From Slackia sp. ZJ119 (GTDB lineage: Bacteria > Actinomycetota > Coriobacteriia > Coriobacteriales > Eggerthellaceae): a stretch of 64,000 nucleotides of DNA. Numbering within the stretch: the stretch's first letter is position 1; each line of letters opens with the position of its first letter. The position numbers and the translations under genes are program-made. The notes beneath the pieces were generated by a model that did no database searches, had not been told where the DNA came from, and was given only the letters and a program-made list of their open reading frames with translations. Shown piece after piece: positions 9,848 through 64,000 of this stretch. The stretch is taken from NCBI RefSeq assembly GCF_011039175.1, contig NZ_JAAKEN010000011.1, positions 1-64,000 of the forward strand, read 5' to 3'.

Positions 9848-9865
9848 ACCAGAGGGGACGCAGAG

Positions 9866-12445: not shown

Positions 12446-12469
12446 ACGAACAGAATGCGAGGGATGTCC

Positions 12470-22324: not shown

Positions 22325-22423
22325 ATGTTCGGCTCAGTTTCTGTCCGACGAGGGATGCTCGAACCTGTGGTTGCAAGCTCGGGAGCGTGCTTTGTTTGCG
22401 CACCCGAGTTTGCGGTTGCGTGA
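22325..22423 (+). CDS. 32-residue leader peptide frame before the giant gene
   Basis: ATG at 22325 has AAGAGGA seven bases upstream, a better site than the giant gene's own. It encodes MFGSVSVRRGMLEPVVASSG, then ACFVCAPEFAVA and TGA at 22421. It is in the same frame as the giant gene and ends 12 bases before its ATG, so translation could be coupled. CTCGGG near 22379 and CCCGAG near 22404 could fold into a hairpin within the frame's end. Whether the peptide is made is unknown. Confidence 0.45.
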   Translation: MFGSVSVRRGMLEPVVASSGACFVCAPEFAVA

Positions 22424-22435
22424 AGGCGGGTTCGT

Positions 22436-22666
22436 ATGAAACTGGGAAAACTGAACACACCATCGGTCGATGTCGAGCAGAAGGACCGACATCTCGCTCT
22501 TTCGCTGGACGGCGATCTGCCGTCTCAATCGGCGCATGCCGACAGCGACGCCTCAGAGGAGGTGTCGACGACAGCGCTGCCGCATTATTCCTTGAGCCAC
22601 AAGATAGTGTCGGTCATTTTGGCCGTTTTGTTGGCCCTGATGACGTGGGACTCTCGTGCCGTTGCC
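22436..22666 (+). other. Signal peptide with extended N-region of the giant protein
   Basis: Residues 1-77. A charged 55-residue lead is followed by SHKIVSVILAVLLALMTW and SRAVAE, a plausible type I signal peptidase site after AVA. The long N-region resembles the extended signals of very large secreted proteins in other bacteria. Confidence 0.65.
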
Positions 22667-25600
22667 GAAATGCGCGTCATCGTCCAAAACGAAGACGTTC
22701 CTCTGGCATCGCCGGCAAAAGACTCGGCCGAGCAGGATGCCGACGTGCTCGCAGCGGACGGCGGCAGCGGGGGCGACGCGTCCGAAAGCGACGAGGCGGG
22801 CGACGCGCCCGAAAGCGGCGACGCGCAAGACGACGCTCAAAAGACGGATGAGGCGAAAGCCGATGCCGACAACGCCACGAAGGGCAATCCCAGCGCGGAA
22901 GCAACCGCGGCCCTGAACGGCGACGCCGACGAAAAGGCCGTCATGGAAGAGGCCGACTATCCCGATCCGAACACGTTTCTTCCCGAAGGCCTGGAGAAGG
23001 CCGACGCCGTGCTGCCTTCGCCTTCGGCAGACCTCGTCGCCGCGTCCCAGAAGGCCGGCGGCGTGTCCGATTCCCAGCTTGCGGACAAGTTGTCAGGTTT
23101 GTTCTCGTATTCTTTGACGGCCACGGGCGCTATGCAAACGTCCGATGGCGCGTATCAGGTCGGTGCGTCGTCGGTCGCCATCCAGCCGAGCTTCGGCGAT
23201 CTGGACGAGCTGCTTGGCGGCGGTTACCTCGGCGGCATGGAGCACAACGACTTCGTGGCGTACGTGTTCGAGGCGCCGTACCTTTATAAGAACGTTGACG
23301 GAGTGCTTGAGCAGACGACGTCCGAAGAAATGTGGAAATCGCGCGGGGGCGACAAGGAGGACCTGCGGGCGGTGTTGAAGGCCGACGAGGTGCCCGACGG
23401 GTGGACGGTTTGGACCGAGCATGACGGCAAGTACTTGAAGCGAACCGAAGACGAAATCGCCGCCGGCCTGTCGGGTCGGCTTGTCGTGCGTTATGAAGGC
23501 GCACTCGACGAAAACGGCATCGTGGACCCTGACACGCGCGGGCGCATGAGCGCGACGGTGGCGGCTCCGACGTTCGAAGCGTCGCTGACGTCCGGCGTGC
23601 CGGCCGACTGCATGGTGGAAGTGCGCGGCGGCTACAAGGTGAGCACCTATACCGCGCCGGCACCCGAGGGCGGCAAGGAGACGGGCGAGCGCGTTGTCGC
23701 TGATATGCGCGTCGACGACGCGGCGGCCGTGAAACTTTCCAACGTGGAAGCGGAAACGCGCTTGGCAACAAGCGTTGAGGCGGCGCCGGATGCGCAGGTG
23801 GGCGACGAGATTGCGCTCGCTGTGCTGCAAGCGAAGGTGTATGCGGAAAAGGGGAGCGCCGAAGAAGGCTCGTACCGCTTGACCGTGGCGCCGCAGGGCG
23901 AAGAAGCAGCCGGGCTGAAGGCGGCCGACGTGCGCGTGTACGACGTGACGAAGCTTGCGGCCGACCAGCGCGAGGCGGTCGACTGGACGAATGCCGAAGC
24001 AGCTGCCGCCGCGGCAGGGCAAGGCGCGGTCGAAGTCGCGGTCGAGGCCGCAGACGACGGCAGCGTGGTCGCGACGCTCGACGTTGCAGAAGGGCAGGAG
24101 CTTGCGGAGAACGCCGACGGCGCGGGCGAGAGCGCCCGCGTGTTCGTCGTGGTGGCGCCGTTTGATGCGAACGCCCTGGTGAAGGCCGATGTTGAAGGCG
24201 ACGGGCCCGATACGGGCGACGATGAGCTTGTAGAAGGCGCGACCGAGGAAGCATTCGAGCCGGCGCAGCTGCACGTGACCATCGAGGCGAACGCGAACGC
24301 ATCGCTCGCGCAAGAGGAAAAGGTCGCGGCGGGGGCAAGCTGGAAGGATGCCTGCGCACCTGAAGCGTGCACGTACCGAAGCGTCGCCTTCGTGCCGGTG
24401 ACGTTTGCCCCGCGCAAGGTGCCCGAGCCGGCCAAGCCGGAAACGACGGACAAAACGCCTGCCGACGAAGGGTCGAAAGACGACGACGTGGACGCCGACC
24501 CAGATGGAGAGGATGCGCAAAAGCCTGAAGAGAAGCCTGCCGCCGACGATGCGCAGGCGAAAGACGACACAACCGCAGACGACCAGCAGCAGGCTGCAGA
24601 CGAAGCCGCCCCGAAAGACGAGGCGGCCGACGTGTCTGATGAGGAGGAGTTGAACCCGGTCGAGCTGCTCGCGCCCCAAACGCGGCTTTACAGTGTGGCG
24701 TTGTATGCGAATGCGGCGGCTGGCGCAGGAGGGTTCTTCCTTGACGAAAATATGTTCAAGCCTGAGTTCCAAGAACCAGATATGGAAAAGATCGACGGCG
24801 TGGGCAACTATCTTATGCGTCCGGGCAATCCGGGCAGACTTGTTGTAAGAATGTCCGGTAATGCTGTGACAGCCCATGGCGGCTACTATGGTGGTTCAGA
24901 GAGTACGGCGACTACCTATTACTTGAGCATTCCGTTTTTCAAGATCAATGAAGATAACGGCGCTGAATCGGTGTATTACGGCACTCAAACCTCTGACAAC
25001 GCCTATATGGGTTTGAAGATCGAAAATGCATCCACAGTCACAGCCCATTACGACCTGTATGTGGACAGGGATCCTGACATACCTGATACTGACCCGAGCA
25101 AGTGGTTTCTCATCAATACGCCTGCCCAGCGCAACAATGCTGTGGCTGCGGGGTACCTGAGGGATCCTGAACTGCTAACGGGCAGGATTAAAATGGTGTG
25201 TGTGGGAAACAGGCAGGGTGCCGGTCCTGCTCACAACATGCCGGATTACAGGCAGACGGGCAACGATTCACTTGATTGCGCTATCATATTCGCCGGCGAT
25301 GACCTTCCGTCGACCACAGGCGGCAACATCAAGCTTGAGGCCAAAGTGTATAAAGCCATGCTTCAGGGTGTTTTGCCGGTGTATCCCGCAACGAATCCAG
25401 ATCCCTATGTCGCCAAGGCGGAAAACCGCTACATTCCGGGCGCGACAGACGGAAACTACCTGCGCAACATCACCATTATCTATTCGGACATCGACTTCGA
25501 CACCGGGATAAAAACGTTGTCGGAATACCACAATGACGGCGTGAGCCGCATAGATGCCAAGGCGAACGTGTTGTGGGACCAGTTCAATTACATGGTCTAT

Positions 25601-28600
25601 CGAGGAACTACCAACAACACGTCTGACGATGCGGACATCGATCGCGTTCAGTATCAAATCCGTGCTATGAACGTTACGACCGACAAAGGCAAAGGCCTCA
25701 AAAAATATGACCATCTGAGGTGGATCTACGACCCGGACGATCCGAGCAATCCAACGCTGGGCATTGGGTCGGACGAGAGGCCGCTGTTCCAAAACTATGA
25801 AAACAAGACGTTTGTGGGCAAGCCGGGTAAAGGCGGCGTCCTCGTTTACAACACGAAAGGATGGACTGACCAGGACTACAAGGACCTTGACACAAACGAC
25901 TTCCACAACATCAACGATATTTACGATCAGGTTATCGCCAGGTGCCCCGATGGTTCACTCGAAAAGTTTGAAGCGGAGCAGCGGCGCAGTCCCTTGCCAT
26001 ATTCCTGCCAAAATCAAAATGGCGTCACGTATTTCATCATTCATGGCTTGACGGATGGCTATCCGAACGGTGGAAAATACAACATTGGCGGCCATATGAA
26101 GGCCGATGAGACGAGCGAATACATCATTGCTGTGCCTTACACGACCAATATTCCGGTCACGAAGGCCGACGTCGGCATAGTGGCAGGATCTCCGGGAACC
26201 GAAGGCCATGACACCTATGTGTCGACCACCACAACCATTCGTTTCGGCAATCTGGGTGAGAAAAGCTATTCCTGGTCAAAGAACCCCAACGGCGGCAAAC
26301 TGCCGGTTTTGGATACGTTCAAACCGATTAAAGCGAATGTCAAATTTGAGAATCGCGTGATCGACAAAAATCCGCTTCTTGGTGCTAACAACATTGTCCA
26401 GACTACGGCATTCGAAAACCTGCTCGGATATCCGCGCACCATCGTGCTCGATGACTTCAAAATGTCGGGCAATCGGCCGATCATTGGAACGGACTACGTC
26501 AGCGACAACGACACGGCGGGCCCGGAGCTGTACAATCAGCTGCCGTCATATTTCAGGCCTTATGGCGTCGAGCTTACGGTCGCGGGCGAGCCCAATGCCT
26601 CTTCGGTGCAGTTGAGCGACGGATTTGACGACAACCCGGACGATTTCAGCAACGATGCGAGCAATCCGGGACGTTTCGCACTGGGCCAGCTCCCTGCGGG
26701 GCTTTCACAGGCTGCTCAAGACGAATGGGACGCGCTTGTTCCGAAAATCCCTGATGGCTCAGTCGTGCAGTTCCAGGTTCGGTACAAGTCCGACAGCAGT
26801 CCCGACAAGTATCGGTGGATCACGGTAGGCGAGCCGCAGCAGGTGTCGACGGGCACCGATGCAAGCGGCAGGCCGACGGCTACCTACATGATAGGCAAGA
26901 CGGACCGCGTTGATGCAACCGGAAACGCGGTTGACAGCATCAGCGAGATCCTTCATGACATGGGCGTTTACAGCGTGGTGAACCGCACACGCTTGCGGTA
27001 CCCCTTCACGCTCACCGGCAACGTGCGCATTGTGCTGAAGAACAACCTGAAGCCGCAAGACGAATACAGCGACACTGAAATTCCCATTTCGGTAAAAATC
27101 CATGGCGCCATGACGGTGGGCAATACCCATTACAACAACAATGCCAGGATTCTGTTCGGCGTGAAAAAATGGTCCGACGAAAATCGGAAGTACGTTTCGT
27201 CGAAAAAGGAGACGACGGCGGACGTCTCCCTTTTCATGAATGCGAAAAAGACTGGGCCGCATGTGCGAGCCAGTGCGTTGAACAGCCCCAACATGAACAT
27301 GCCTGCAGGGCAGACCGTTCCGTCTGAAGTCGCGTTTGGCAAGTCGCGGGATGCATGGCGCAGTGTCAACGGCAGTGAGCAGGACGAGCGTTACGCAGAT
27401 CATTCCAGCAATTTGGACGCGAATGAATGGAAAGAGCGCAAGGCCTACTTGGACTACACGGGTTCTGGGTGGCGCTACAACGTATGGAACGAGGCCGCCT
27501 CTCAGCTTGAACCGGCGTCCATCAAGATCGGCAACATCAGAGTCGAGCCGTCCAATCCGGCGTACGACGGCATTGACAAACCTTTCGATGCGGAAGGCAT
27601 CTACCTCAGTGCGGGGCTGGTCGACAAATGCGTGCTCGATTACTGCGACGTGGTGTACGTGAACAAGGTGACCGGCTCCCTATCGTCAAGGACCATCGAC
27701 TTGCGTGACGCATCAAGCCCCTACCTCTCCGTAACACCAAACGGCGGCCTGCTCATCGAAGAAGAAGCTTGGGGCGGCAGCGACTTGAACTACTTGAAGG
27801 AAGTCGAAATCAAGGTCGAGCGCTTCATTACGGACAAGAACACCTCTGACAACAACTTGAACCATGTTACCGATGAAACGACGCCTGCCAACCAAGAGGC
27901 GTCTTATGTCGAAATCTTGGGTACGCCGAGGTATGTGGGCGAGCTGCACCGCGAGGCAACGTTCGGGTCTGACTATGGCTTGAATGACGAGCTGGAATGC
28001 TGGGACACGGCTGAAGCGGTTTTGAACGTCGAGGTTCCTCCGTTTGAACCGCAAGTCGAGGCCTTTGCAATCCAAAGCAGCGGCAACGATCCGAACCGCG
28101 TGCGCAAGCCGGGCATGGATTTGGGACCGAGCATTGGGGTGACCCCTGCGGACCCCCCCACGCAGAAAAGCTCGGGCGATCCGAACGATGGGACGCAAAA
28201 CCGCATCGACACGTATTGGAACGACGTTGATTCAGGCTATCGGTATTACATTCGCAATACAGGCGACTGTGAAATGCCTAAGAGCAGTCTAAACATCGGT
28301 TTGACTGACAACGATCCGGAAATGTATCGATCGGGCAACGTGGCCACAAAGACGAACGTGGTCGAGGTTCCTTCGGGACAAACAGCGGAACGTTTCGGAT
28401 TTGAAACGACGAAGCTGTTCCTCAGCAAAGAGTTCGTGAAAATGGGCATCCATTCGATGACGTTGCAATACCTCAACGATCGAAACCTTTTGATAACGCG
28501 GGTGTACCACGATGGCAGCGGCGGTTTCACCGACAAAATGGGTCTCGTTTTGCATTACTTCCTGAAACAACTTTACGACCCGTCGTATCAGCCGGAGAAC

Positions 28601-31600
28601 GGCTCGTTCGAGAAGCTGGTGGTGGACGCGCTCGGCGATCCGACTTCTGACGAGGCGATATTCCTGCAGCGGCTCAATGATTGCATTGAAACGGATGTTG
28701 ACGGCAATGTCATTATCGACAAGCAGTTCTGGGACGATGGGTACCTGTTGGGCGTTACGTTGGGCATCGATGGCTACGATTCCAAGGCTCAAGCGATGCA
28801 GAAGGGCGTTTATGATATGCGCTACATCGAGTTCTACGGTGTGGCGACGGCTCGAAACCTCATCAACGGGACGAAGGCCGACATGGGCTTGTCCGGCCAG
28901 TTCAGCACGAATTTGCCAGTAGCTCAATGGAACGTGACGTCTGACCCTGACGATGGCAAGGCTATTCTGAATTCCGTGCTGCATCCGGTCAATCCCGACC
29001 CGACTATGCAAGGCTTCTACACCTATCCGAACAGCAACGATGTTGGCGACCGCAAGTACAGTAACCCCAACCATAACCAATACGCTTACTGGAACAACAA
29101 GACGTCGGGGTATCGCACCTACCTGACGAACAACACGCGCTTTGCCATGGACGGCGCAAAGTTGGTTATCGGCGACTTGGCGTACAAGTACGAGTCTGCC
29201 GTGCCGGGCCACCCGAAAAGCCGATATACGCTCAACAACGCTTTGACGGACGGCGTGCTGCCTTTTGGCACGCGTCTCGGCCTCATGCCGTTGAAGCCTT
29301 CTGGCTATTATGGTGACAACGACGACGATTCGATAAAGATAAGCAAGAAGGTGTTCGAGGTCGGCACGGTCAGCGACCTGCAGGTGAAATACACCTTTGC
29401 GGGCACCATGCCTACGTATGGATTGGATGGTGCCCATGGGCCCACCGATACGACGTACCCCTCGGCAAGCGAATACCAGGGAAGTATTTCCATTTCAGGC
29501 GAATATCTCATTGCCAAGTGGAAGGATCTGCGCCACAAATCGCTGACTGCGGAAGAGCAGGATGTTCTCAATACGTGGAATGGCTATTACGATCGGGCGG
29601 GCCGTCAGTATGACTTCCCGACGTACAACTATCTGGACCAAGATAAGGAGGAAAAGGCCGGTTTCATTTCGGTCAATCGGGCGCTGTCTGTGGACAATGC
29701 CGGCAACTTGTACATCGATTCGCGTCTGTGGGCTGGCCGCGAATACACGCTGCATGGCAACAAAGTCGGCGGAGGCGGCTATTTGCAAGGGCTGGAGATG
29801 ACGTTTTCGGCCTTTGACCGGCGTGTGAAGACGAACACGGGCGCATATGTGGAAATTCAAGGCGTCACGAACCTTGCGCAAGGCACGTTCGACGGGACTG
29901 ATCCGAATCATCCGCGCGACTCCTACATTGATTATTGGGATATGCCGCTGACTTCGAAGTTCTCCACCAATTACGCTATTGCGTCATGGAACACTGAGAC
30001 GGGCAATACTCACAAGCGGGAGATCAAGCTGTTTCCCACGTTGTATCCGGTCAAGTTGAATGCCGATATCGTGGCGTTCGGTCCTTATAACGACCCCTAT
30101 GCGAACACTCCTGGTCTGAGCACCTGGGACCAGAGCGACTTGACGCAAAATCCTGCTGGCAAGTATCCGGTAAACAGCGGACAGGACCTGAAGAACTATC
30201 GTCGCGGGAATGCGTATAAACACGGGCCCGATAACCTAACCACCGACACGAAGAAGGTATATCGCGGCAAAGAAGGCGTTGGTCTTCGTCTGCCGATGAA
30301 GAACAGCAGCAGCTTTGTGTTGGATGGTCGCATCAAGGCCAAATACGTTGCCGACATCGGCATCATGAAGAACGGCAACGCAGAATACACCGGTGCCGAA
30401 ACTGGGTTTGCCAAAGCGGATTGGGGCTTCACGCCTTCAAAGCTCGTGTTCAGTAAGGCACTGTGCGAGAACGCGGATGACAACGTCGAATACGTCATGA
30501 TCCACACGAAGGCTCCCGTTGATGGTTCCTCCACCGATCTGACGCAAAAGATTTCCGGAGAGGATCTTTACAGATATTGGGCCTATGATCCTGATCCTGC
30601 GTGGACTGGCTATGAATATCTGTGGTGGCTAAAGAGCTACAAGAACAATGACATGTCTGGCAACAATGCGACGTATGGCAATCTCGTTCTCAATGCGCCT
30701 GGCTGGAGCGATGGCGATACTGAAAAGATCCGCTACATCACGAAAATAGAAATCGTATTCAAGAACTTCCCGGCCGGGGCCGATGGCAAGTACTTTGTCG
30801 AAGTGTATGGCAAGGCCACCTCGCTTGGCACGGCGAACATTGAAACGACGTTCCAGACGTATTACGACGAAGACACGCACAGCGATCACCATTGGGACTG
30901 GGCGACAAACCATGCTCCGGCGGGCAACACAGTAAAAGACGAGATCAATCTACAGACCGTGCTTGATCCGGTGGAGCCGGTTGCTACGGTGGTTCCGTTC
31001 GGCATGCATCCTGCTGCGAATCCTGGCGGCAACAGCAGCGTCATGGGTGCGCGCTTGCCGGGCGCGACAGACTGTCGACCTGGCAGCGTGAACGGCAACA
31101 ACAACATCGCACTCGGCGGCTCTGGCGTGAACCAAAACGGCACGACGGGCAAATATGTGCCCGGCGTCAGCGGCGGCTCTGGCTACGACAAAATCGGCAA
31201 GCGTTGGGCCTACAGCGGCCGGCGCGGTTCCGGCTTCCGCCTGTACTTGGAAAACAAAAGCACGACGTTTGCGATGTACATGGGCGCTCGGGCAACTCTG
31301 ACGCTGAGTGACCGCAGCCTTGTCAATGACGCGAGCACACGTACGAATTTTACGACGAACGTCGTGGTTCTCAGCAAGAAGGCCCTTGAAAGCGTGCTTG
31401 CCGGCTTCCAGCCAGGCGCTGTAGGTCTGCAATCGCCGCTTGGCCCGAATGATGATGCCATCAATATGACGTTCAAGCATTCTGGCGGCGTTGCCGATTC
31501 GCACCTGGATTTGAAGGGAATTGCTATCAATTTCGATACGTCCACGTATCCTAAGCTCACCTCCGCGAGTGCGGTCAAGGAGTGGCTGGACGGCAATGGC

Positions 31601-34600
31601 ACCTATGGCTCCGATAAGATCGCGTGGCACAACGGCAACCTGCTGATCAAGGGCCACTGGACGGCCGACAAAATGAAGCGGGTCGAAGTAGCGATGAAGT
31701 ATTTCAATCGCAACGTCATCAACGTCGAGCCTTCTGCCAGCAACCCTCTTCCCGACTGGGCGTTCATCGAGTTGTACGGCACGGCTGAAGACTATGCTGG
31801 TACGTATAGCAGCTATAACAACGACACTGCTGGATCCATTGCGATGACAGGCGTCTTCGCGACGGATTATCCAACTCCCGCGCTGAATGACACTACCAAG
31901 GAGCATACAGCGAAGGCTGCCCTGTATTCTACGTTGGACCAGGTGCGTCCTTGGGTTTCGTCGTATTCGTACACTGGAGCCAATGGTCCTGCAGATTTGG
32001 GCGTTACCAAGCGGTATGAGTCGAAGCCGGTGTTGACGCACGTTAAAAACAGTCCCGACGTAGACGACACGAACCCGGTGGCTCTTTCGTTCGAGGAAAG
32101 TTCTGGCTTCCGAGCAGTGTTTAAAAACGACTCCGATTACGCCATGCCGAACAATTCTCTTATCACTCTCGAAATGAAGTACAACCAGCCTCGCTGGTGG
32201 AGCCACAGCACTGGAACTGACCCTTCGACGCACATTGACAATTCTGACCCGTTCAACCAGTCTTTGAGCTATGGCAAGGCGGGCAACATTGGCTTTAGGA
32301 CGACCAGCCTGACGTTCAGCAAAGACTTCCTTACTGCTGCGGATATCAAGAGCATCAAGTTCACCTACGTTCCCTATGACAAGACGTCTCCAACAAGTGC
32401 CAAAACATATGAAGACACTCAGAACAGCCAGGCTTTAGCGACGCTGCTCGCCGGTCAAACTGCGACGGGGCTCAGACTGCACAAGGATGCATGGAACAAT
32501 GGCGACCTTCTGAAAGTCGAGATAACGTTGAAGAGCTTTGCCGAGGGCGTTTCCAACGATGCGGCGTTCGTCGATTTCTTCGGCTATCCTATGGATTCCC
32601 CGGACGTGAACGAAGATTATTACATGCCGATGGTAAGGGCTGGCGACTATTCTCGGTTGACGGCTAATCCTCTTGGCCACTACATGGACTACGAGGAATG
32701 GTTGACCCTCGACGGCAAGTTCACGGTGAATTATCCGAATAGTAAACTGTGGAACACCATTGGACGTGCTGGGACGTCCAATGGCGCCACCGATTCACGT
32801 CTGCGGTTCTACTCATACGACTCCGACCAGACGGCCATGCGCATTCGTTTGGGCAAGCCGGAATTCGGCAGCGAGGTGTATGCCGCTTTCAAGCCCAAGA
32901 CCACGTCCCCCAGCGTCGTCAACGCCACTCCGCTGCGCACCATTGCCGATCATGATCTTGAGCGCAACCTGGCACCTGCCGCTTATGGCGACGACGAAAA
33001 ACCCTACCAGTTCTTCGACAACGTGAATACCCACGATCCTGTCACTACGACGCGTATGGAACACGGCGCTGCGTTCAGGGCCTATGTGTGGAATGCCGGC
33101 AAGGCGGCGCCTGAATCCGAGTTGACCATCAAAACGTCCAACGAGCAGGAATTTACCGATACGACGCTGGCACAGAATAACGGCATCAACAATAGGTTCG
33201 CTGGACTGAACGTGCAAAAGATCGGCTTCAGCAAGAAGCTGCTTGAAAAAACCGAGATCAAGAGTGTTGAGATCACGTATCTCAGCAATGCGAATGGCGC
33301 TGAGCAAAAGAAAGAGTTGAGCTGGGCCCAATTGATGGCTGCAGCATCAACGGAATCTGTCAATGGCAGCAACTTGACGAATCCTGCCACCGATGGCGGT
33401 GTGATCGTATCTGCTACCGATACCAATCTGTGGGGGCAGTCTGCCGGTCAGTACGTGCGCCAGGTCAAGGTGAAGTTTGAAAAGGTGCTTGGCGGCACTG
33501 CGAAGGGCGACGATCTGTATGTCGAGCTGTACGGCTATACCGACGTGGCTGGCCGCAGGATCAAAGCTCATTCCCAGTTCAAGACCACGCCGCCGACGGC
33601 GGTTGGCACTGCGTGGAACTTTTCAGGCAGTTCTATCAACGCCGAGTCCGATGCCGAAATGAACTGTCTGCTGGAAAACTACAAGAGCAAAGCGAAGACG
33701 GAGGCTTTCAGCGCGGCGTCCGGCGTAGGCCTGGCGACGGGCGGCCAGCTCAACGACGAATTCAAACGCGGCGACTACGGCGCGTACGGCTCTGGTTGGC
33801 GATTCACGCTTACGTCCGACGTGACCGACAAGACGATGCCGCACGCCATGTTCGAAACCGATGACATTGCCATGCAGCCCTATGCCGGTTCGAATACCTT
33901 CATGTCTAACAAGAATGTCAACCTGAACGTGACGAAGGTGCTCGTGTCCAAGGGCGTGTTCGAGCGCGCCGTCACACCGGACGAGGACGATCCAACCCAA
34001 ATGAAACAAGGCGTGATCGAGCTGCGCATACGCTTCAGCGGAGAAAGCGGCTCTGCGGTTCGCACCGTCTCTATGCCTATTGACAAAGTGTTGGCTGCGT
34101 TTGCCGATCCGACCACGGGCGAGGCGCCGGCGGATGCCAACGACCTTATGGCGAACTATGTCGGCCAAGAGTCGGAGGCGTTCCCGGCGTCTGAAGTAAT
34201 CGGGCCGCTGCCGGGGCAGACCGCTCCTTATGCGGTGCCGGCAAAGGCCTTGACGGTGACCGACCAAGGCCTGGTCATCAACAAGCTTGCTTGGGGCAAG
34301 TTGAATTACTTCCGCAGCCTGGCCATTCCCATGACGGGCTTCCAGAACGGCAACTACAACGGTGCGACTGCCTTTGTGGAATACTACGGCTTCGGCGACT
34401 ACCGCTTTGACCAGGAGATGGTGGGCGATCTGCGCACCAATTACACCGACGAGCTGCTTTCTACGTGGAACGCGCATGGCTATGACGATGCCGAATTGAT
34501 GATCGGCGTGCCGCAGTATCGTCCGCAAATGGACTTGTACTCGTATGTGAATCGCGACGAGGACCAGCTGAACAAGGATGTAGACGGAGCGTCGCTGGAT

Positions 34601-37600
34601 CTATTCGAGACGCATCTCAATGACAATAACTTGTGGTCGGCAGGCTATGACTACGCGACGCATCCTCGTGCGTACTATCGATATGAAGGCACGGGATATC
34701 GGGCGGTCGTCACCAATGCCAGCGCTATCCCTATGAATTCCGTGGCCATAGAAGACGACGAGTCGGTTTTTGCCGGCAACAACGCAAACGGCGACCCTCT
34801 GGGTGGCGCGAGCATCAAGCATGGCGGTGCCGTCATTGTGCTGGGCGAATTGAAACCGGGCACCGTAGGCTACAAATGGGACGGCATCAGTCCAGAAGCA
34901 CTGAACTATCGCGAAAACGCCTACGGCAATGAAACGACCGGCATTTTAGGCAATGCAGGCCTTCACACGAACGTGCTGACCATCGGCAAGAACTTGATTG
35001 CGGGGACTGGAAACGATCCGGAGTCGATCGAGTTCGTGTCGTACAAATCGACAAATCCTCTTACAGGACTTACCCCTCATGTCGTCACCATCGATTTGAA
35101 GCAGGCCAAGCAGTGGATTGCGGGAACGGTGCAGCCTCCGGCGCATATCACCGTTTCGGCGACGGGAGACTTGGTCATCGGCGAAGGCGCGTGGGGCAAG
35201 CCTGTGGCAGGCGGTTACGAGAAGCAAGACCTGTACCGCGTGACGATCAAGTACACGAATTTCGCTGGCAGTGCGGTGAACAGCAATGCCAATGTGCAGA
35301 CGACCAGGAACTACATTGACATGGTCGGCCACGCCATCGACTCGCCGAACAAGCTGACGTTGGACGGCGGGCCGTACTGCCATTGGGATCCGCTGGCTGC
35401 TTCTTATAAATTCTGGTACAACGACTCCGATAACCCTGACCGTGTCTATGAGGTCATCGACCTGCCGGGCAGGGTGGAATCCCGCTATGACGTTTCTTCG
35501 TGGAACCGCTTTACTGAACAAGTAGACCCGAACGATCATTGGGGCCAGAACTACAACGACTACAACGAGAAGACGTGCTCCTATGACTACGGTCGCGTGT
35601 TCGCCCAGGTGGCACCTGTTTCGCCGAAGGTCGAAGGCCGCACGTATATGGACAACAGCCTGAAGCATGCGCTCAAATACACTGGCAGCACGCCTCCGGT
35701 TTTGAGTTATAGCACCACTTCGGATGCATATTTCGACGAGCTTGGCGCGGCGTATCAGTTCCAATTCACGAATTACACGGACCTGGATGCTTCGGCGGAT
35801 TCGTGGACCGGCTCGGACACGTGGCCTTTGAACATCTATGACGGTGGAAAAGACTACGACATGTTCGACTCGGTCATCAAGCTGGAGGCGGTGCCGAAAG
35901 ATCCGCTCAATGCTGCTTTGGACAACCTGCCGCTGTTCCAAAACCTTCAATTGAAGGTACAGGACTTCTTGACGACGGAGCTGGCCATCTCCAAAGGCTT
36001 CCTTGCGGCTACGAGCGATCCTGACGGGGCGAACACGATCGGTTTGAACACCAAGGCGGGCAACCGCATGGGCTCCGTCAAGATTAGATACGTTCCGAAG
36101 AATTCCACTGCGACGTTGAACTGCATATTCGAATTCAAGAACGACGGATCGATTCTGGATCTGTGCAAGTACTACGACGCGTCGACGGGCCACATTGTCA
36201 TTCCGTACAAGGCATGGGACAACGGTTATCTGTTGTCGGTTGAAATACACCCGAAGCTGTTCAAGGGCGGCACGAATGAGTCTGACAAGGCCCTCATCGA
36301 ATTTTTCGGCAAGGCCACCAACGTCAAGGACGATATGGACGTGGCGGGTTCGTTCGGGACGGAATACCTGGACTACAACAACGTCTATCGCACGGAACTG
36401 AACTTCTCGGACACGCGCGCTGCATGGCCGGCCCGTACCGGACGTCTGGACGGCGAGATTGCCCCCGTGAAACCCATATCGGACGTGTATGTGTATTCGG
36501 ACAAAACGTCTGCCAACGCGAACCTGAACTACAGGGGTTTGTCTGGCGAGAACGGCAGCTGGGTCACGGATACCTCGCCGATTCCGCTCAAAGGGCTTGA
36601 CGTGTACATCGGCGAGCTGAAATCCGGCTGGCGTTTCTGGATAGAGAATCCCAGCAATCACAAGATGCCGCACAGCAAACTGGTCATCGACAAGTTCAGG
36701 GCCGATGAGCTTGACGGCATGTGGCGTGGCTTCGAGACCGAGCAGGTAACGTTCTCGAACAAGTTCATGAATTCGATAAAGAGCGGCTATTCAGCTACCG
36801 AAGTCATACCTGGCACGGTAACGCTGAAGTACCTGAAACAGGGAAGCGGCTCTGCAGCGGCCCCGGTTTCGGGTTTGCAAGTGACGAATGTGAGCGCCGT
36901 CGGCGCTTCTTCGAACCCGCCCACCGACCGGACCAGCACGTTTACGGCAGGTACCGACTATGGCGTCGACCCGTTGTGGATGGCTCCCGATCCGGCAGCT
37001 GCGGACGTGACGTTGCAGCTTGTAGATAATAAAATGGGATACACTTTCGATGCGATGATCGGCAAGCCGGGCCAAACCCTCATAACGAGCGATCCCTCGT
37101 CGAGCCTGCATCTGCCACAGCCGACGGCTACCAATTACGACTTCCTTGGTTGGGACACTCAGGAAAATCCGGCCGACCAGGTGGTCGATCCGGTGAGCGC
37201 GACGGGCGATTTGAACGCACTGCCCGATGCGGACACCACGCTGTATGCGAAATGGAAGGCAAAGCCCGTGTCGGCTGGTGGCAACGTCAGCGTGAGCAAG
37301 GCTTCCGGCATCATGGAGCGCACGCGAATCGACATTAATTACATGCCCGCCCAGGACCGCAAGTTGACCAACATTACGGTGAAGGGTGCAGGCGGCACGG
37401 AATATTCGGTCATCAATGACAACGGTCAGTTCTACTTCATCATGCCCGCCGAAAACGTGAGCGTGACTGCCACCTTTGGCTATTTGACTGATTCGTCGTT
37501 TACCGGCTCAACGGTGCCCACGCTCAACGGCACCGAGCAGTCCAAAACATATGCTCTCAACGACGTGCTCGGTCGCGGCAATCCAGACGAGCAGGGTATT

Positions 37601-49600: not shown

Positions 49601-52600
49601 GACTTCATCTGGTCGCTGCAAGGCATGCCGGGCGCCACGGAAGACAGGTACCCGATGTTCATCGGCACGCCGAACATGCCGGCCGTGAAGGGATATACCG
49701 TTCTCAACAATAAAGTGGCGGCTCAATATGTCGAGAATGTCGGAGTCGAGGCGGCGGCTCAACAGCAAGCGAAGCGCGTGACCGACAACAGCGCGGTGGA
49801 CTGGAAGAAGGCTAACCGCGGCGCCATGCGTCTTTATGCCCAGACTGGCGCGAAGGCCGTGCAGCGTCAGCCGCTCGTTCGCGCGTGGAATACGGTGTCG
49901 GAATACTCCAAGGACTTCGCAAGCGATCCGGTGACGGTTGAAAACGACCAGTATTACGTCAACGTCACTACCGACCGTCGCCAGTTGAACGTGCACGTCG
50001 AGAACCGCTACTGGCTCGATGAGCAGCCTTACGAGTGGTATACCGACAACATCGTGCCGCGTGAGGACTGCAACGAAATCACCGATCCTCTCACGCATGC
50101 CGTTACCTACGAGCCTTATCCAAACACGGAGTACTGGAAACGCTGGACGTCGGAATACAAGAACAATTACGCCGTCGATGGCGGGCAAAAGGGTTCGCTC
50201 GTGCTGCCGGTCGTCACGGTGGTGCTGCCCTATGGCGTGGCGCCTTACAAGACCGTGACCGGCGAGCCGTATGGCCAGCAGCCTGCAACGATGGACGATG
50301 ATGATTGGGATATTGCCTACACGGTAGGAGCCGACGCTGAGCATATGAGCGGATTGGCAACGTCCGACTTGCTGGGCAATCCGGCTGTGGGGAAGCTTAC
50401 CGACAACATGCCCGACAGCTTCAAAGACAAGTTCGAGGCAACGGTTCGCTACGAGACGGTTTATTCCGACGAGATTACCGACAGCGTAGGAAGCAAGACC
50501 TATCTGAAGGAAAAGCGCTTTGTCGTGCGCTTCGTGCCGAAGGCCGACGGCTTCAATTCGGACGAAGACTTGAAGACCGCCATCGCATCTGGCGCCATGG
50601 ACACGTTCAAGTTCAATATTATTACCTACGACGAGCCCAAGACCCATTCCAAGAACACCGGCAAGGACATTGATGCCTGCTATGAGAACATTCGTACGTA
50701 TGTGTCTTCGAAGATGATCGGCTATAAGAACCTGATCGACGAAGGCATTATGGTGCAGACGAAAAACTCGTTGCTCGCCAATCCGTTTACGCCAGGGGCA
50801 AAAGCCCAGATGGGCACTGACGAGCGCTTCGTGATTCTGAACTACAAGGACGGCATTCAACATTCTGGCGACAAAGACGAAGACGAGATAATCGTCGGCG
50901 GTACGCTGATGTACGAACAAATGCTGAATACTGGTATTGCCGCCGGTTTGCTCGAAGGGGAAGTTGACCAGGATTCTGATGATTGGGGCACGGATATCGG
51001 AGGGGCCCGCATCCGGAAGGAAACCCCTGGGTTCACTGACGATCGCCGCCTGGACGCCACGCAGGACTATTATCCGACGTATGAGTCGCTTTGCAATTGC
51101 GGCCACGTCTACGTGATTCACCGCGAAAGCAAGTGCGGCTTCATTCCTGACTTCTCCATCAACGATGGCAGGAATGTCGAGCTGACTCCTGGCGTGTTCT
51201 CGAGCGCCACCACTGAAGACATGCCGAAGAACTATTTGGCCGGCTTTTTTGGGCGCTACCAGGAAGACGAGGGGACGAAGCGTCTGAAAAACCCCGGCAT
51301 GGGCGTGACGCTGAAAGCCAACGGTTTGCACGGCATCGAATATCTGGCAGACAACAGCTACAACGGCCGCGGCCTTCTGGCGGGTGATTATTGGCTGGAA
51401 GACAGCGTGGGAGCTACGTATTCCTATGGCTTGACGGAGGCGACCACGAAGGGCCTTAACGGCAACAGTGTGAACGTGCAGTCCGAAGAGTTCTACGATG
51501 CACGCAACGTGGCGAATGGAACGGCGCAGCCGGTCATCCATCATGACGGCGGCGTGTACACGGCTACCAAGCTGCGCATCAAGCGTCCGTCTCTCACAAC
51601 GTATTATGAAGTGGAAGCAAACCCGATCGACCGTCCGAGTGACGACGAGACGATCGACTATTCCGACCCGACCACGTCGTACTTCAAACCGGGTACGCCG
51701 GAGACCGGCAAGGGTGCTTCTGCGGGCGACATCGTGACGCCTGACGGCTCAATGATCAGGACGAAGGAAGAGGAAACCCTCGACGAACTGGTGAAGACCA
51801 TTTCCAAGCGCTTCGAGCTGTACAACGGCAAATGTCTGGTGGACGACGAAACCAAGCTCGAAAAGAATCCGCTCAACACGATGGAATACCAGGCCATGAC
51901 GCAGACACGCACGGTCTACAGCGCTGACGGCACCACGAAGGTGGCTGACGCGACGATTACGACTGAACTGCCGTATTTGAACCGTTATATAGCCGTGATC
52001 ACGGTGTATCGTCCGACATCGGGTGCGGCGGCGGCTGTGCAAAAGATCGATTTCGATAGTGGCGAAAGCATTGGTTTGACGCTGTGCAACACCGCAGGTG
52101 TACCGGACGGCAATCTGAACACGGACGGCTGCAACACCATCGCTGAATACCTCACCAAGCATCCCGAAGTCGGTTGGGATTACGAAGAGCGCGACTTCCG
52201 TGTCGAAGAGGTGACGGTCGACAACGGCTATGTCATGTACGCATTCGATGACGGGGCTTTCGAGCCGTCGCGCATCGAAGACGCTTGGCAGTACAACGAC
52301 ACTCCGTGGTATTCCGCCACGGTGAAGAACATCGTGGCGCCGGGTGATGAAGATAACGAGGCCAAGAAGGGCGATCTGCCGTATGGCAAGTACGTCTTTG
52401 CGCTTGAACTGCCTGAACAGGTGACGTTCTATGACAGCACGTGGGCCAAAGAAAACCTTATGCGCAACATCGATGGGCTGTACAGCTATGGAGTCCCGGT
52501 CCAATACAAGAACACGTTCTACGACTATGAAAATGACGACTACTCCTTCTATGTGGAGCACACGTATCGTGATCGCAACGCCGGCCCGAACGACCCCGAA

Positions 52601-55600
52601 TTCGTCACCGAACGCTTGACCCCCAAGCAGATGGTGGAGCGCGGATGGACCATCAAGATTCTCTACGACGATGGTTGGGGAGAGAATGACTACAGCCAAG
52701 ACGGCTACGGCAAGCCTGATGCGGACGATTCGGACCAGAAGGTGTCGAAGAACAACGAGTTTGATCAGCCTCTCTACAACGCCACGGCGCAGACGGTGCT
52801 CAATCACAATATTCCGAGCCAGAGCAATTCGTGGTACGAAAGCGACAAGCGCACGACGGAGAACACGAAGCGCAAGTCGCACGGCAAGGAAATGGTCACC
52901 ATCGAGCTTTCGATGCCTTCCGACGAAACCGACGATGAATTCTTTGAGTACGATTCGCTGCTTGAGGCCACGTATGGGGGCGTGCACGCCGATGGCTATT
53001 TGGGATACGAGGATTCCATCACTTTGAAGGTGAGGACGCGCATCGACAACATCGGCGTCGAAAATTCCGACGATCCGGACAATCTGGGTGCCAACGATCT
53101 GGCCGAACAGTACGACCTGATCGATCCGATGGCACAGAAGATGGCTTCTTACCGCCAGATCGCCAAAGACATCAACGCATGGGATGGCAGCCAGTCGAAG
53201 CTCTATGTTGCCTTGCACGACACCGACTTCAAATGGAAGTCGGGCGAGGATGACCGTTCCTGGAGCCATACTTTCTCTGGATTCTCTGGGGAAAAGGACG
53301 CCCCTGCCGGCTTCATGACCTACAGCCAGCAGCATGGTGGCATGGTGCCGACGCCGAAGGTCGAAGCGAACAAGCCGTATTACAAGCGCGTACGACCCGA
53401 GCATCCCCTCAACGTCTCGAATGCCTTGGTGAACGAGTTTGCCAAGGTAAACAATCGAACGATCAACTTCACGAAGGACACGTTCGACGAGTTGTCTTCG
53501 CTTGTCGACGTGAACCGCGACAACATAGCTGCCGACGCGCACGTCGGACCTTATGACGATTTGTGCGGCATCGACGAATCCGGCTACTTCCGCACGCGCA
53601 TGCCGTCCATGAGCGTGCGTGGCGACACCGACATCCTGCGCACCTTGGTGGACAGCGAGGACTACGAGGGCGTGTCGTATTCCGTCGACGCCTACGAAAA
53701 GGAAGACAACAACTTCTACCTGACCCAGGCCATCAACACCGGCGGCGCGGTGAATTCGTTCATCGTCGATTGGCAGATCCCGTTCTGGGCAACCGACTTG
53801 TCATCGAAATTCGATGCCGTATTGAAGAGAAGCGCTCTGTACAACGTGGGTCGCATCCAGTCCGAATTCCAGACGGTCAGCACGGGCGTGTGGGAAGTGC
53901 CAGGGGCGGAATACGGCACTATGACCGTGGAAGCGACAGACGCAGATGGCAATCCGATTTTGGATGCCGACAACAATCCGACCTATGTGACGGTGAACGA
54001 TCCGTCGCAGCCGCAAAACGAAGAGGCTGAGATCGAAACGCAATTGCGCGTGTTCATGCTCGCCCGCATCGTCACCACCGATCCGGCCGATGACGGCAAT
54101 GTGTATCGAGAGAACAATGTGGAGGACGAGCCCGATCCCGACCCATCGGTAGGCGGCGTGCTCGACTTTGAGGATTATGCGCTTGCCGGCACCGATGCCG
54201 ACCGTGACTACTACTTCGGAGAAGACGACGAATATGCGACGCAGGGCGGCGTGACGGCCGTTGACGACAAGAACAACGCCTATGAAGAGCAGTGGGTGGT
54301 CATTGGCGATCCGGAGGGCTACCCGGTGTCCGAAAAGAAGAACGAGACCATCAAGCGCTCTGAAATCCTGAGTCTGAACAACGAGTTCGCGCAGGTTCGC
54401 CAGATCCGCTGGGTCGTGAAGGCGGTGCCCGACGGATCGACGGTTGCAGACGACACGCTGTCGACGAAAGTTGCGGTGCCGCATGGATTCCGTCTGGCCG
54501 TGGACGCGTTGGATGACGACCCGGCGCATCCCGAGACCTTGGGCGTGCAAGAGGCCGACGACGTCGACCCGAAGCGATTGAACCTTGGTTGGAAGTGGAT
54601 GTGGGACGCTGCTGGAAAGCAGCTGTTCAACGCCGATGGCACGCCGACGGTTGACGAGACGCAGAAGATGGGCGAAGGCATCACCAAGAATGCGCCGAAG
54701 CTCTACATCCAAACAAAGGTTGCCGAGGCTCCCGAGGACGATACGGGCGAGAAGGTCCGCGGACTGACCAACGATGTGCCGTATTTCTACAACACCGGCC
54801 AGCGCGAGACGACGCACATGAATCATTTCGTGTCTGCCACGCCGCGGTTCGACGACACCAAGTATGTGCATGCGCAGCGCCATCGCGTCGGCCTGTTCCG
54901 TTCCATCTGCCACCCGACGGTGACGCTTTCCATGCAGCAGTTCTACTACAAAGGTGATCTGGGCAGCGGCTTCTCATGGAAGGAAGGGCTGAGCTTCGCT
55001 ATTGACAGGGATTCGTCGTGCGCCATGAAATACCGCGTCATGCTCATCAATATGAGCGACGAAATGCTGCAACTGGTGGGCAAGACCGACTTGAAGGAAG
55101 ACTTCTGCTACAACCCCGAAATCTCGGTGTTGCTGCCCATCATCGAAGGCTTCTGGGATACCGCCCAAATAGGACAGCAGCTCACGTACGTCGAATATGA
55201 CGATATTGTCAATGCGACGGATCCGGAGGATAATTCGAAGAAGCGGTACGATTATTTCTACGATTCAAAGCCGTTCTACGATGATCCGTACAAATCGAAA
55301 GCGGATCCGACGAGCGGTGTGCATTATAATATCGACCAGATTTGCAGCGAACAGCCCATTTGGACCTATTACGTGGCCGACTTTGATGCACAGCGCAACA
55401 TCATACCGGAGACCATATCCCAGGTGAACGCCGAGTCCAAGTTGACGGTGTGCGCGCCGTACGTGAAGGAGCTTCCCGCTTCGGGTGCTCCGGAGACTTC
55501 GGTCACTGCAAAAAGCAAGTATGCCAGCGCGGACACCAGCGATCCGCTGCGCAAGTATCTGAACTGGAAGTTCACCGGTCCGCAGGCGCTGGGTTCCCCG

Positions 55601-58600
55601 ACGCCGTCTCAGGCGTTCTTGAACCCCGGCGAAGGCATCGTCCTTGAGTTCATGATGCCGGTCAGCAAATCTGCTAACGCTTCCGCAAAGCCGATTGACC
55701 GTACGGCGTCCGGCTATGGCTTCAAGTTGGGCGACTACGACATTTGGTGCCCGCCGCAACAAGGCAATTCCAAAGAACAAGTGTCGTCTGTTCACGACGA
55801 TCGAGACGTGAACTTGGACGGCATTGCCGAGAACCAGACGCATGTCAAATCCGAACTGGGGCCGCTTTCCTTCGTCGTGCCGCCGGTGTTGGACCAGTCC
55901 AAGGTTGCCAATACCGACTTGGCCGGTCCTGTCGATTACAATGTGAAGGGCGTCGCTCCGGTGACCGAAGGCGCGCTGTACAATTACCAGGCATCTGTGG
56001 TGAACACTGCATCGTCCGGTGCGGCAACGGGATCGGATCGCAAGTTCAAAGGCGTGGTGATCTATGACGTGCTGCCGCATGAGAAGGATGTGTGGACGCA
56101 CAATTCCCTGAACCGCGAAGACAGGGCGCGTGACAGCCAATGGAGCGGTTGGCTCGAAGACCTCGACTCCATCAAGGTAAGTGTGCTCTCCAATGACTAT
56201 TTGGATACTGAGCCTGATTATCCGTTGGGTATGGAAGGTGGCGTGCGCCCGACGGTGCATGATTTGGCGTCGTATAAGAATGGTTATGAGCTGAAGCAGG
56301 GTCGCGATGTCAAGATCTGGGTCGGTCCGTTCAAACGGGTAGGTACTCAGTACTTGGTTGGAAAAGAAACCGACTTGTTCATGTCGTACAAGTACGGAGC
56401 CGTGCTCTTTCCGCCTTTCTCACCCAACACAAGAAACGCCGAGTTCGACAAGCTGCGCAAAGGCGACGCCTCCAAGAGCGCCGATGAGTACAAGGCCGAC
56501 AACTGGCTGGTTCCCGTTGACGATTTGAAGGCCTACCTTGCCGGCCCGCTCGCCCCTGAGGAAAAAACGAAGATCGTTCGAGCGGTGCGCGCGATCTGGG
56601 CCCAGCTGACCGACGAAACGACTGACCCGAGCGGAGATCAGACCAACTTCCTCTATGTGCCGAGCAATGGCTCCGTGCGCTTGACCTACGAGCTGCGCAA
56701 CCCTCTGAATCTGCCCATTATCGCGGGCTCGCTTACCGGCGATGTCGATGCCGATATGGGCCGATACGAAGAAGCCAAGGAGCCCGTCCTGTACAACAAG
56801 TACAAGCGGTGGGCGGCAAACTTGGCGAATTCCACGCAGATCAACACGGCGGTCACGCGTGCCGACGGACAGACTCAGGAGACCGCGTTGAACGAGGATA
56901 AGCGCGCCGGCGTGTTCACCAATGCGCCCGAGGGCCGCGGCTACATCGGCAGCTACGTGTGGATCGACGAAAATTGGGACGGCAAGCAAAACGATACGCA
57001 GCTTGACGACGACGGCACGCCCGCTTACGAGAAGACGACGACCGGGCGCAAGCTTATGAGCGGCTACAAGTACGTCAAAGATGCCAGCGGCAACTATGTG
57101 CTTGACGCCGAAGGCAACCGCAAGACCGAATGGTTCGACCACACTGACGACGGCTGCCTGAAAGACCTCGATTACGAGCCCGATGCCTCCGGCGCCGCCG
57201 ACGTGGATAACCCTGGCGTCAACGGCGTGAAGGTGGAATTGCTCAACGAATACGGTCTGCCGGTGAACCGCGATTGCCAGGTGGCACAGCTTGTGAACGA
57301 TACGCTGACGGGCAACGTGGACCGCTGGGTGGTGTGCGAGCCGGCTACTGGTCATGTTCACGTCACGCCGATGGGCGGGTATCTGAACGCAGACGCGGGC
57401 GCTCCTTACACCTACACCACTGAAGACGACTATTACGGCAACCCTGGCTACTACATGTTCTCCAACTTGAAGCCGGCCATCTACCGCTTGCGCTTCACGT
57501 TCCCTGAGGAGTACTACAGCTATTCGCCAACAGACAACTCCATCGGTCTTACGCCCCAGGAAATTCAAGACGAGCTGGGCAGCTATGGCATCAACTTGTC
57601 CAACTACGGCTTGGGTTCGGCCGAAGCCAAGCTGACGGTGGAGCGCCACGACCGAAACGGATCCGATCCGGCGAAGCTTGTGGTGACGACCGATCCCATT
57701 GCGGTTGGCAAGGTGACGCTTGACAACACCAAGAAGCTCGACAACGTGCGCTCCTACGACGATCCGCTGTTCTCCTGCTACGACTATAAGATGAGCAATT
57801 ACTCTCTCGGCATCGCGCGCAGCGTCGTGTTCCACGGCACCACCTATCGCGACGACATCGTCGACGACGGCTCGCCCGAAGGCATCGTTGAGGATCCCGA
57901 AGTAATCAACTCGTTGCTCGACTCGGTGTCCGTGGATTCGTCTGCTGTGGAAAATGAGGACATGATGGCGGGGGCGAGCACCAATCTGCTCGTGCCGTCT
58001 GGCAATACTATGGTGGAGGTGACCGACGCCAGCGGCCACCCGATCAAGGCGAAAGAAAAGCGACTTGGCGACATCCGCGTGGACGTGTACGAGTGTGAAT
58101 ACAATGCCTCGCTGGGCGCTACCGTGGTGGGCAATCTGGCCATCGATGCCGACGGCAACAAGGCGTCCTACGTCACGGCCGACGACGGCTTCTTCGAGTT
58201 CAGGCTGCAGCCGAACAAGGACTACATCATCAAGACCTCTGACACCATCTACACCCGTCTGCTCAAGCCGACGCTTGTCACCTGGACCGGCAATCCGCTC
58301 GACTACACGGACGACGAGCTTGCCTACGACGATGACGCAAGCATTCTTGTGCAGGACAACGATTTGCGATACACCTCGGGCACGGCTCGCACGTACAAGT
58401 TCAGCGCTTTGCATCCGATCGACCCGAACACGAATTGCATCATTCATGAAGACGATGCGAATCCCTATCTGGGCTCTGAAATCCAGAAGAGGCTCGCCCT
58501 CGGCTTTATCGATGGCACGAAGGGCTATGTTGGCGACTACGTGTGGAACGACGCCAATGAAGACGGCGTGCAGGATGATGACGACACGCTCGAGCCAGGC

Positions 58601-61600
58601 ATCGGCGGCAACGGCGAAACGAAGCTGCGCGTGAAGCTGGAGCAGTGGTGGTATCACCCCAAGAATCTGAGCGATCCCGACTCTGATTACGTGTGGGAGC
58701 TCTATCCCGGTCCCTACATCGACGCTCGCGGCATCGACCACGGCTACGGCCTGCGCGAGGCCTACACCGGCGCCAGCTCCAAACCGGGCATCTATCTGTT
58801 CCGCGACGTGCCCACTTGCGTGACCGATCCGGCCGACACAGGAACCAACTCTGACCAGAAGCAGAAGTACCTGGCCGGCTATCGTTTGCGCATCGATCAA
58901 GAAGACCTCAACAAGCTTGATGAGGACTATCTGGTGACGCTGCGCGGCAACACGAATGCTATGGACAAGGATTCCGATCTGATGACGGGCGCGGTGGAAA
59001 CGGAGGTGCTCGAGCAGCCGAACTGCGTGCTCGAACCGAGCAACAACAATGGGCAAAACGTTGACGGCTCGCGCGACGACCATAAGTACACCATGGCTTA
59101 CTATTTGAACGAAGACGGATCGCTGCCCGAAGAGGGCTCGGTTGACGACGAGTTCATCGTGGTGTCGCTCATCGGCTCGCAAACGACCGACGTCGCTCCG
59201 TTCGAATTCTTGGAAGAAGTCGTGAAAGACAGCACGAAGACCAGCACGAAGACGTGTACCGTGTGCAACCATGGACACTATATCGACGGTGCCGATGCGA
59301 CGCCGCATGAGGTCACGTTCCGTCTGCGTTTCCCGAACACTACTGCGGACGATTTGGACATCGTGCTGAGCGACGAGATGCCCTACGCTTCCGAATACAA
59401 GAGCGCCACCATTCAGGTGGGCGAGGATCCGGCGAACCTCAAGAGCGGCAATGCCGCCATCGATGAGGCTGCGTCCACTCCTACGTTCGTGAAGTTCGAC
59501 CAAGTCACGCTGCCCGTGGGCGAGGTGCTGTATGCCACGGTGACCATGACGTCGCTTGCCCAGCGCACGCTGGAAAACGAGTTCGTGCTGGTCACGCCTG
59601 ATTCTCAGCTGGGCGTGCTGGAGTCCAATGTGGTGACGCGCCGCGTGAACCGCGATGCCCACTTCACGCTCGCTGCTATGCCCAAGATGCCGCTGTACGA
59701 GGACGACGGTGGAAATGACTCCATCGATCTGCTGCTCGATCTGGTAAACAAGACGTTTGACGCCATGCCCGATCCGGTGAACGATCCCGAGATGCAGGAG
59801 CCGGCGCACTACGATCCCAATCCTCCGGCTCAACCTGTCTTCTCGGAGGTGGAGCCGGAAGAGCCGCCGGAGCCCGAGGAGCCGACGTACAGCAAGTCGC
59901 TGCCAAAATTCGACTCCGACGGGGTGAATCAACTGAGGGACAAGTTGCAGAGCCCTTCGGAACAGGCTGCGTTTGATGGTGCCTATAAAGCTTTGAAAGG
60001 GCTGTTCGCAAAGCCTGAATACAACCCTGCTATGGTGGGGATAGATTGGTATGAAGCGCAGTACGCTGAAAATCTCGCCGCATTCCAAAGGCGTGACGAG
60101 AATGGCTTGTCGGTGCTTGAGGTTCCTCTGTTCGACCTTGATGCTTATGGGAAGGCTTCGACTGTTGAAGAGAAGCAGCAGATCGAGCAGAGCTATCAAG
60201 ATGAGCTGAACAAGTACAAGCTGCTTGCGACCACGGAGCTGCCGAGCATGGAGCTGCCAAAATTCAACGTGCAGGCTTATGAGGCGGCAGCCGACGATCA
60301 GACGAAGCAGCAAATTCTTGCCGACTACGATATGGCGATGCGGATATTCGAAGCTTCGGTTGGCGACAATTTCCCCGAAGCGGAACTGCCTAAGTTTGAC
60401 GTAGATCGTTACGAGAGCTTCGTGTCGACGGCGAACCGTGAAGCATATCTGAATGACTACAACGACGATGTGGAAAACTTCGAAGACGGGTTGACGGCGC
60501 TTCCGCTGATCGCGGTGCCGACGTTCAATTTTGTGGAATACAACAATATCCCCCAAGCTGATAAGGATGCATACTATCAGGGCTATCTGAAATCGGTAGA
60601 AGCCTATGCTTCCGAGCTCAACAAGGACCTCGTCTTTACGGCGGTGCCTCAGTTTGACACAGCTGCCTATTCGCTGCTTAGAACCGATAAAGAAAAGGCA
60701 GACTTCCTCGAAAAGCATTGGGACGAATATCTGCTTCAGGCAAAAGCCTTCTTCGATGAACAGAACGAGTCGTTTACGGTGGTGACGCCGCCGCTGTTCA
60801 ACGTGAGGGAGTATGAAGCGGCGCTGCAGTCGGACGCCAAGCGCGAATACGTTGACAAATACCTTGCGGACTTGCAGGCGTTCAAGGATCAGGAATTGGC
60901 TATCGATTCGACGGCCACCGTGCCCGAATTCAAGATAGAAGAGTATCTGGCGCAGTTGAACGATCCTACACGTGGAAACTTCATTGAGAACTTCCAGGGC
61001 AAATGCGACGAGTTCAAAGCGTATCTGCAAATCACGACGTTGAAAGGTGCAACGCCCACTAACGAGGAGGTCGAAGCCGCGCTTGCGAACCTGCCGAACC
61101 GCAACCCGAACGATGCCAACTCGTATACCGCTCGATATCTGAAGTGCGACGATGCGGAGGGCAAGTCCACGCTGATGAGCGACTACAACACGGCGTGGAC
61201 GGACTACTGCAACGCTCTGATAACCGCTGGCTGGGCAATTGATTTCACCGAGAGCAGGGTGCCGAAGTTCGATTTTACCGAATTTGAGCTGCTTCCTGAC
61301 GGAGCGGCTTTGGCCAAGGACTACGTCGATACGTACGCGACTGCCGTGGCAGCCTATCAGCCCAAGACCGCTGTGGAAGAAGAAACGCCTTCTGGCAACG
61401 AGGAAGACGAAACGTCTTCTGGCAACGAGGGCGAAGGGCCGCAGCCTGCCGCAGGCGGAGAGACGCCTTCCGGCGGCGAGAGCGAAGAAACGCAGCCTGA
61501 GAGCGAAGAAACGCAGCCTGAGAGCGAAGAAACGCAGCCTGCTGCGGAGGAAACGGTGCCGTCCAACGTTGATGGGACTGAAGAGACGCCGTCTGATGTT

Positions 61601-64000: not shown

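Follow-up and report, generated by a model that had tools for sequence, protein, structure and literature searches.

In the 64-kb stretch of DNA analysed here (the window), a single forward-strand frame opens at an ATG at position 22436 and continues for 13,855 codons to position 64000 without a stop. This frame belongs to one gene for a protein of 22,170 residues, which we consider likely to be secreted and anchored to the cell wall by sortase as a fibre with an adhesive distal part. The window is part of contig 2 (99,528 bp) of a source genome of 2.84 Mb that is 99.9% complete in 40 contigs. When the remaining contig was fetched, the first in-frame stop was found at codon 22,171 (nt 88946-88948), and the whole gene spans contig positions 22436-88948 (66.5 kb), encoding an acidic protein of 2.43 MDa and pI 4.5. 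The initial annotation, made from the window, had described a frame of at least 13,855 codons open to the window edge and a protein above about 1.5 MDa; both statements hold and understate the full length. That annotation had also proposed extending the contig for a stop and an anchor, and the extension revealed, ahead of the stop at 88946, a C-terminal LPQTGD, a membrane helix and RRRK.

Over the same DNA, the other two forward frames contain 692 and 740 stops, in comparison to about 775 expected from base composition, while the antisense frame contains just 61 stops and one opening of 3,394 codons. Since long antisense openings arise by chance here, an open frame alone is weak proof of a gene, and the split of the source genome into 40 contigs could likewise point to a misassembly. 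The question is settled by conservation of the frame and purifying selection on it. A comparison of strains, another suggestion of the initial annotation, revealed an intact syntenic ortholog of 22,297 aa in a related genome assembled as a single contig (G003), 69.5% identical over 21,572 aligned positions, with flanks that are 90.6% (upstream) and 90.7% (downstream) identical. A simple counting estimate placed dN/dS between 0.22 and 0.38 in each 1,000-codon block across the full length of the gene. The longest exact repeat within the gene is 43 bases, too short for repeats to have plausibly confused the assembly; furthermore, dozens of family frames are intact, and a published complete Sanger genome carries two such genes (PMC3778203). 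The ortholog, the selection on the frame and the intact family frames rule out both a misassembly and a chance open frame, for which we see practically no probability. Judged from sequence comparison, the giant frame is real and intact and is no assembly artefact.

To describe the domain architecture, we used iterated profile searches among five giant proteins of two genomes, the source genome and G003. The order is a signal segment, an N1 domain with an acidic linker (together reaching to about aa 750), a head, approximately 12 repeats, a central region of about 6,400 aa, a set of helical repeats, the SdrD_B array and an LPXTG motif (Table 1). The repeats are only about 30% identical to one another, and in the absence of any exact repeat above 43 bases a recent tandem-repeat expansion of the gene is ruled out. 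Of the five giants, this gene and its ortholog in G003 have the helical repeats, which were not found in the paralogs. The SdrD_B array covers about 8,300 residues, with PF17210 matches of up to 81.9 bits in the C-terminal half. There are 21 acidic VWxDxxxDG loops, the first two at residues 11.5k and 12.0k. The initial annotation had proposed mixed SdrD-B-like, InlB-type and helical repeats. The SdrD-B-like (PF17210) and helical (~44 aa) types were recovered, whereas the InlB type was not, the best match to the Flg_new/InlB repeat (PF09479) being one copy at 19 bits against a cut-off of 27. No Pfam family reached its cut-off over roughly the first 10,000 residues, nor over most of the length of the central region (aa 5542-12000); the head and centre had no Pfam family match, and no Pfam hydrolase, protease or other enzyme domain was seen in the pieces scanned. 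A search of solved structures by sequence, using the head, repeat, central and SdrD_B regions, returned nothing useful. Cysteine is rare in the protein except for CxxC/CxC-type clusters at window 41900-43600 (aa ~6491-7041) in the central region, which are kept in the G003 ortholog and may represent metal sites or disulfides.

Table 1. Features of the giant gene located in the 64-kb window (window positions; residues of the encoded protein).
Feature	Position	Strand	Residues (aa)	Description	Basis
Ribosome-binding-like sequence	22423..22429	+		AAGGCGG, 6 bases 5' of the ATG	by eye
Window portion of giant gene	22436..64000	+			open frame, full contig 2
Hydrophobic signal segment	22586..22645	+	51-70	within YSLSHKIVSVILAVLLALMTWDSRAVAE, after 50-residue extension; TSWNS..IAEAR-like segment in paralogs	hydrophobicity
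N1 domain	23288..24595	+	285-720	conserved in 23 family members; acidic Pro-rich linker at end	alignment
Head	24833..27355	+	800-1640 (from ~770 by profile)	single copy, conserved family-wide; predicted tandem beta-sandwiches	alignment, model, structural matches
Repeat array	27083..38548	+	1550-5371	~12 divergent repeats of ~290 aa	profile searches, alignment
InlB/Flg_new-like repeat	37043..37252	+	4870-4939	single, below cut-off	Pfam scan
Central unique region	39059..58435	+	5542-12000	collinear in paralogs, to aa 10090 in Bacillota	profile searches
Helical repeats	59759..63232	+	12442-13599	~44 aa each	profile searches
SdrD_B-like array, start	63236..64000	+	13601 on	runs past window to ~aa 22000, LPQTG after	Pfam, profiles

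The two ends of the protein resemble those of sortase substrates. The protein terminates in ...LPQTGDMLRVAVPVSIAALCIALVVVLGRRRKEDEEESEKR, with LPQTG at aa 22130, a helix at 22136-22157 and a basic RRRK tail. The two strongest hydrophobic stretches among all 22,170 residues are the signal segment and the helix after LPQTG, and their location at opposite ends of the protein supports this reading. The signal peptide claimed by the initial annotation corresponds to a hydrophobic segment, directly followed by AVAE; this putative export signal lies behind an N-terminal extension that is unusually long. The G003 ortholog likewise ends in LPXTG, a helix and a basic tail, and an LPxTG or close variant was present at family C-termini in 14 of the 19 windows sampled, the remainder being mostly mis-aimed or at a contig end. 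The curated LPXTG models TIGR01167 and PF00746 had no match reaching the C-terminus of the giant gene, and the LPQTG assignment therefore rests on position and conservation; NCBIfam had no match in the N-terminal and C-terminal pieces. The source genome has four matches to the sortase family PF04203, two above cut-off, with a best score of 88.7 bits. The gene with the best score (G000:C37 83747-84683, minus strand) adjoins a small Gram_pos_anchor protein (frame of 621 aa) and no giant gene.

Structural modelling of the head (aa 800-1638) produced a chain of beta-sandwiches with a pLDDT of 73 and a pTM of 0.64. The best matches were integrin alpha legs, with Z up to 11.5 and a very large rmsd. 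Model residues ~500-805 matched the Gram-positive pilins PilA/PilB of S. sanguinis, BcpA and EbpB (Z 8.4-8.8, rmsd 2.9-3.9), antigen I/II C-terminal domains matched over a longer range (Z 8.3-9.2, rmsd about 10), and the match to SdrD A2-A3 was weak. These matches, of middling quality, suggest an adhesin-like fold class and do not indicate a ligand; neither a site for ligand binding nor an enzyme motif was recognised. A model of one 290-aa repeat (pLDDT 73, pTM 0.57) had no meaningful structural match and is uninformative on the novelty of the fold, as the chosen cut probably splits a sandwich.

When the gene was compared to its G003 ortholog along its length, identity was 0.90-0.94 at aa 1-750, fell sharply afterwards to mostly 0.46-0.72 over aa 750-12,000 and to 0.30-0.39 in the helical repeats, and returned to about 0.75-0.94 in the SdrD_B array, the putative stalk. 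Synonymous divergence follows the same steps, which favours exchange of allele blocks over positive selection. It is likely that the region from aa ~750 to ~13,600 (window 24700-63200) represents a swapped, divergent allele block in surroundings that are ~90% identical. In a second ortholog pair, of approximately 30k codons, the ends are 75-90% and the middle mostly 35-65% identical, with one less conserved stretch within the stalk. In both pairs, the ends are conserved and the distal part is diversified.

The source genome encodes two further paralogous frames, of 30,463 codons (G000:C12 62031-153422) and 34,927 codons (G000:C39 9969-114752; loci L012 and L056-L061), the latter exceeding the window gene. 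Both paralogs are collinear with the window gene and terminate in LPQTS, a helix and RRRR, in contrast to LPQTG in the window gene. The three giant frames sum to about 263 kb, or 9.3% of the genome, and two of the three have counterparts in G003, of 22.3k and 30.6k codons (30,639 codons for the C12 paralog). In the C39 paralog, the signal segment lies just upstream in a different frame; this change of frame at the 5' end could stem from faulty assembly or be a genuine mutation. The part of the window upstream of the giant gene contains a 1,349-aa secreted-looking protein with C-terminal choline-binding (cell-wall-binding) repeats (120-4169, plus strand), an HTH_38-domain protein that is probably an IS30-like transposase (16291-17607, minus strand), and, 2.8 kb from the giant gene, an L,D-transpeptidase (YkuD with PG_binding_4; 17834-19621, plus strand) of wall remodelling.

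Homologs were detected in 20 of 138 Eggerthellaceae genomes with the N-terminal query and in 18 of 138 with the central-region profile, and in a class-wide sample they were found in Eggerthellaceae only. Family frames reach 34,927 codons without internal stops, and some are cut by contig ends. The named carriers are Adlercreutzia (caecimuris, muris, mucosicola, faecimuris, equolifaciens and agrestimuris), Parvibacter caecicola and Enterorhabdus sp. P55. Adlercreutzia and Parvibacter are gut bacteria, and isolates exist among the relatives. A tree of the heads separates a long lineage (18-35k aa; support 100/98) from shorter members (8-13k aa) with weaker support (80/70), and places the window gene and its G003 ortholog as a deep branch inside the long lineage. 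The long clade also includes the giants of A. equolifaciens DFI.6.87 (24,860 and 20,475 codons). In that strain, loci L072, L084 and L090 match the giant family, with homology over the head and the central region; the comparison with A. equolifaciens was made through these DFI.6.87 loci.

Collinear homologs of smaller size were identified in gut bacteria of the Bacillota: Massiliimalia timonensis (6,701 codons), a Ruminococcus MAG (8,210) and a Ruminiclostridium MAG (5,340, probably truncated where the contig ends). They have a head, about one repeat unit and then a central region matching aa 5542-10090 of the giant; no other part shows such extensive conservation between phyla as the central region. 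The Massiliimalia protein continues after the central region with an SdrD_B array (279 bits) and an LPKTGD-helix-KRK end; its first 3,887 residues had no Pfam or NCBIfam match. The central region was present in 2 of 394 sampled genomes of Massiliimalia's order. This patchy distribution may reflect either transfer or repeated loss.

The hydrophobic ends, the LPXTG motif at most readable family C-termini and the sortases in the genome are best read as the initial annotation proposed, as a giant surface fibre, with the fibre shape and adhesion as the predicted elements. The protein would be exported by Sec via its N-terminal signal segment, after which a sortase would link it covalently to the wall at LPQTG. 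Next to the wall, the SdrD_B array would form a stiff stalk, in which the acidic VWxDxxxDG loops probably bind calcium and would stiffen it, and head, 290-aa repeats and central region would be held far from the cell. A beta-sandwich spans about 4 nm per 100-120 residues, and an extended chain of this protein would thus approach 0.8 micrometre. Host mucus, matrix or adjacent cells are the most likely binding partners of the distal part.

The protein might also be cleaved after export. In one alternative, the giant is a surface protein processed into several shorter pieces, of which the central region would do the work; conservation changes sharply at aa ~750 and ~13,600, Pro/acidic linkers lie near the first of these positions, and it is the centre whose conservation extends furthest across phyla. 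We regard this as unlikely: neither a protease domain nor a known cleavage site turned up, and the domain order is kept in all paralogs, suggesting that order matters. A degradative or predatory surface machine would be a reading in line with the very large proteins of Omnitrophota and relatives, which have been interpreted in this way (PMC12057145), and the undescribed centre could hide enzymes; against it, the pieces scanned contain no Pfam hydrolase or protease domain, and the protein has one anchor helix, not many. This we consider highly improbable. An intact, sortase-anchored adhesive fibre is the reading that we prefer.

Giant genes of this kind and their surface interpretation are already known: the complete Sanger genome of A. 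equolifaciens contains two, of 74,766 and 74,247 nt, with LPXTG, which were proposed to encode surface proteins (Toh et al. 2013, PMC3778203). A. equolifaciens subsp. celatus has smaller homologs (PMC8142583), and the giant genes are absent from strain 68-1-3 (PMC4599084). The initial annotation's view that proteins of such length are very rare holds across bacteria but not within this Eggerthellaceae lineage, in which carriers typically have one to several, the first of these genes having been published in that 2013 report. The window gene is similar to the A. equolifaciens giants in size class, C-terminal LPXTG and proposed extracellular location; it comes from a different species and differs in its length of 22,170 aa, its deep separate branch with the G003 ortholog, its helical repeats, and the two additional frames, of 30.5k and 34.9k codons, that accompany it in its genome. 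Like the MSCRAMMs SdrC/SdrD of Staphylococcus, it has SdrD_B domains that bear acidic loops and lie between LPXTG and a distal head, for which an Ig-like fold is predicted; however, it is more than 10 times larger, its central region has no counterpart there, and neither a serine-aspartate repeat region (no run of at least 12 S/D residues) nor YSIRK was found in it. Giant1-5 of Apilactobacillus kunkeei (PMC12863079) and Ebh of S. aureus are likewise very large extracellular Gram-positive proteins, but with 3,000-10,000 aa, and are likened here by description; A. kunkeei has several giants per genome, and the text of that paper does not mention LPXTG (PMC12863079). The giants of Omnitrophota and relatives reach about 85,800 aa, with a proposed surface location, and are interpreted as carrying several membrane helices and domains for carbohydrate degradation (cited in PMC12057145), in contrast to the single anchor of the window gene, in which no enzyme domain was found. 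Literature on the exact gene or species yielded nothing beyond the A. equolifaciens announcements, and a search that reached few subscription papers and preprints brought up no published map of the domains, no tree of the family and no homologs from Bacillota. The present analysis adds the full length, the family tree and the cross-phylum core.

About 9% of the genome is spent on three uncharacterised proteins, in a group whose relatives include the cultured gut species A. equolifaciens, A. caecimuris, A. muris, A. mucosicola and Parvibacter caecicola. We lean towards the view that the giants are expanded forms of a conserved and previously undescribed core of head plus centre, which exists in a compact form of ~6,700 aa in Bacillota, rather than random repeat blow-ups, and that the long and shorter lineages have been inherited separately in Eggerthellaceae. 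The extreme length would then be old and selected. As a single molecule of near-micrometre length, such a protein would offer an alternative to pili built by sortase; its stalk beside the wall would be conserved, and its distal part would diversify between species. The 6,701-codon homolog of Massiliimalia timonensis brings the family within reach of bench work, and the natural series of lengths, which spans about 6.7k to 35k aa under a single domain order, makes it testable why bacterial proteins of titin size are retained.
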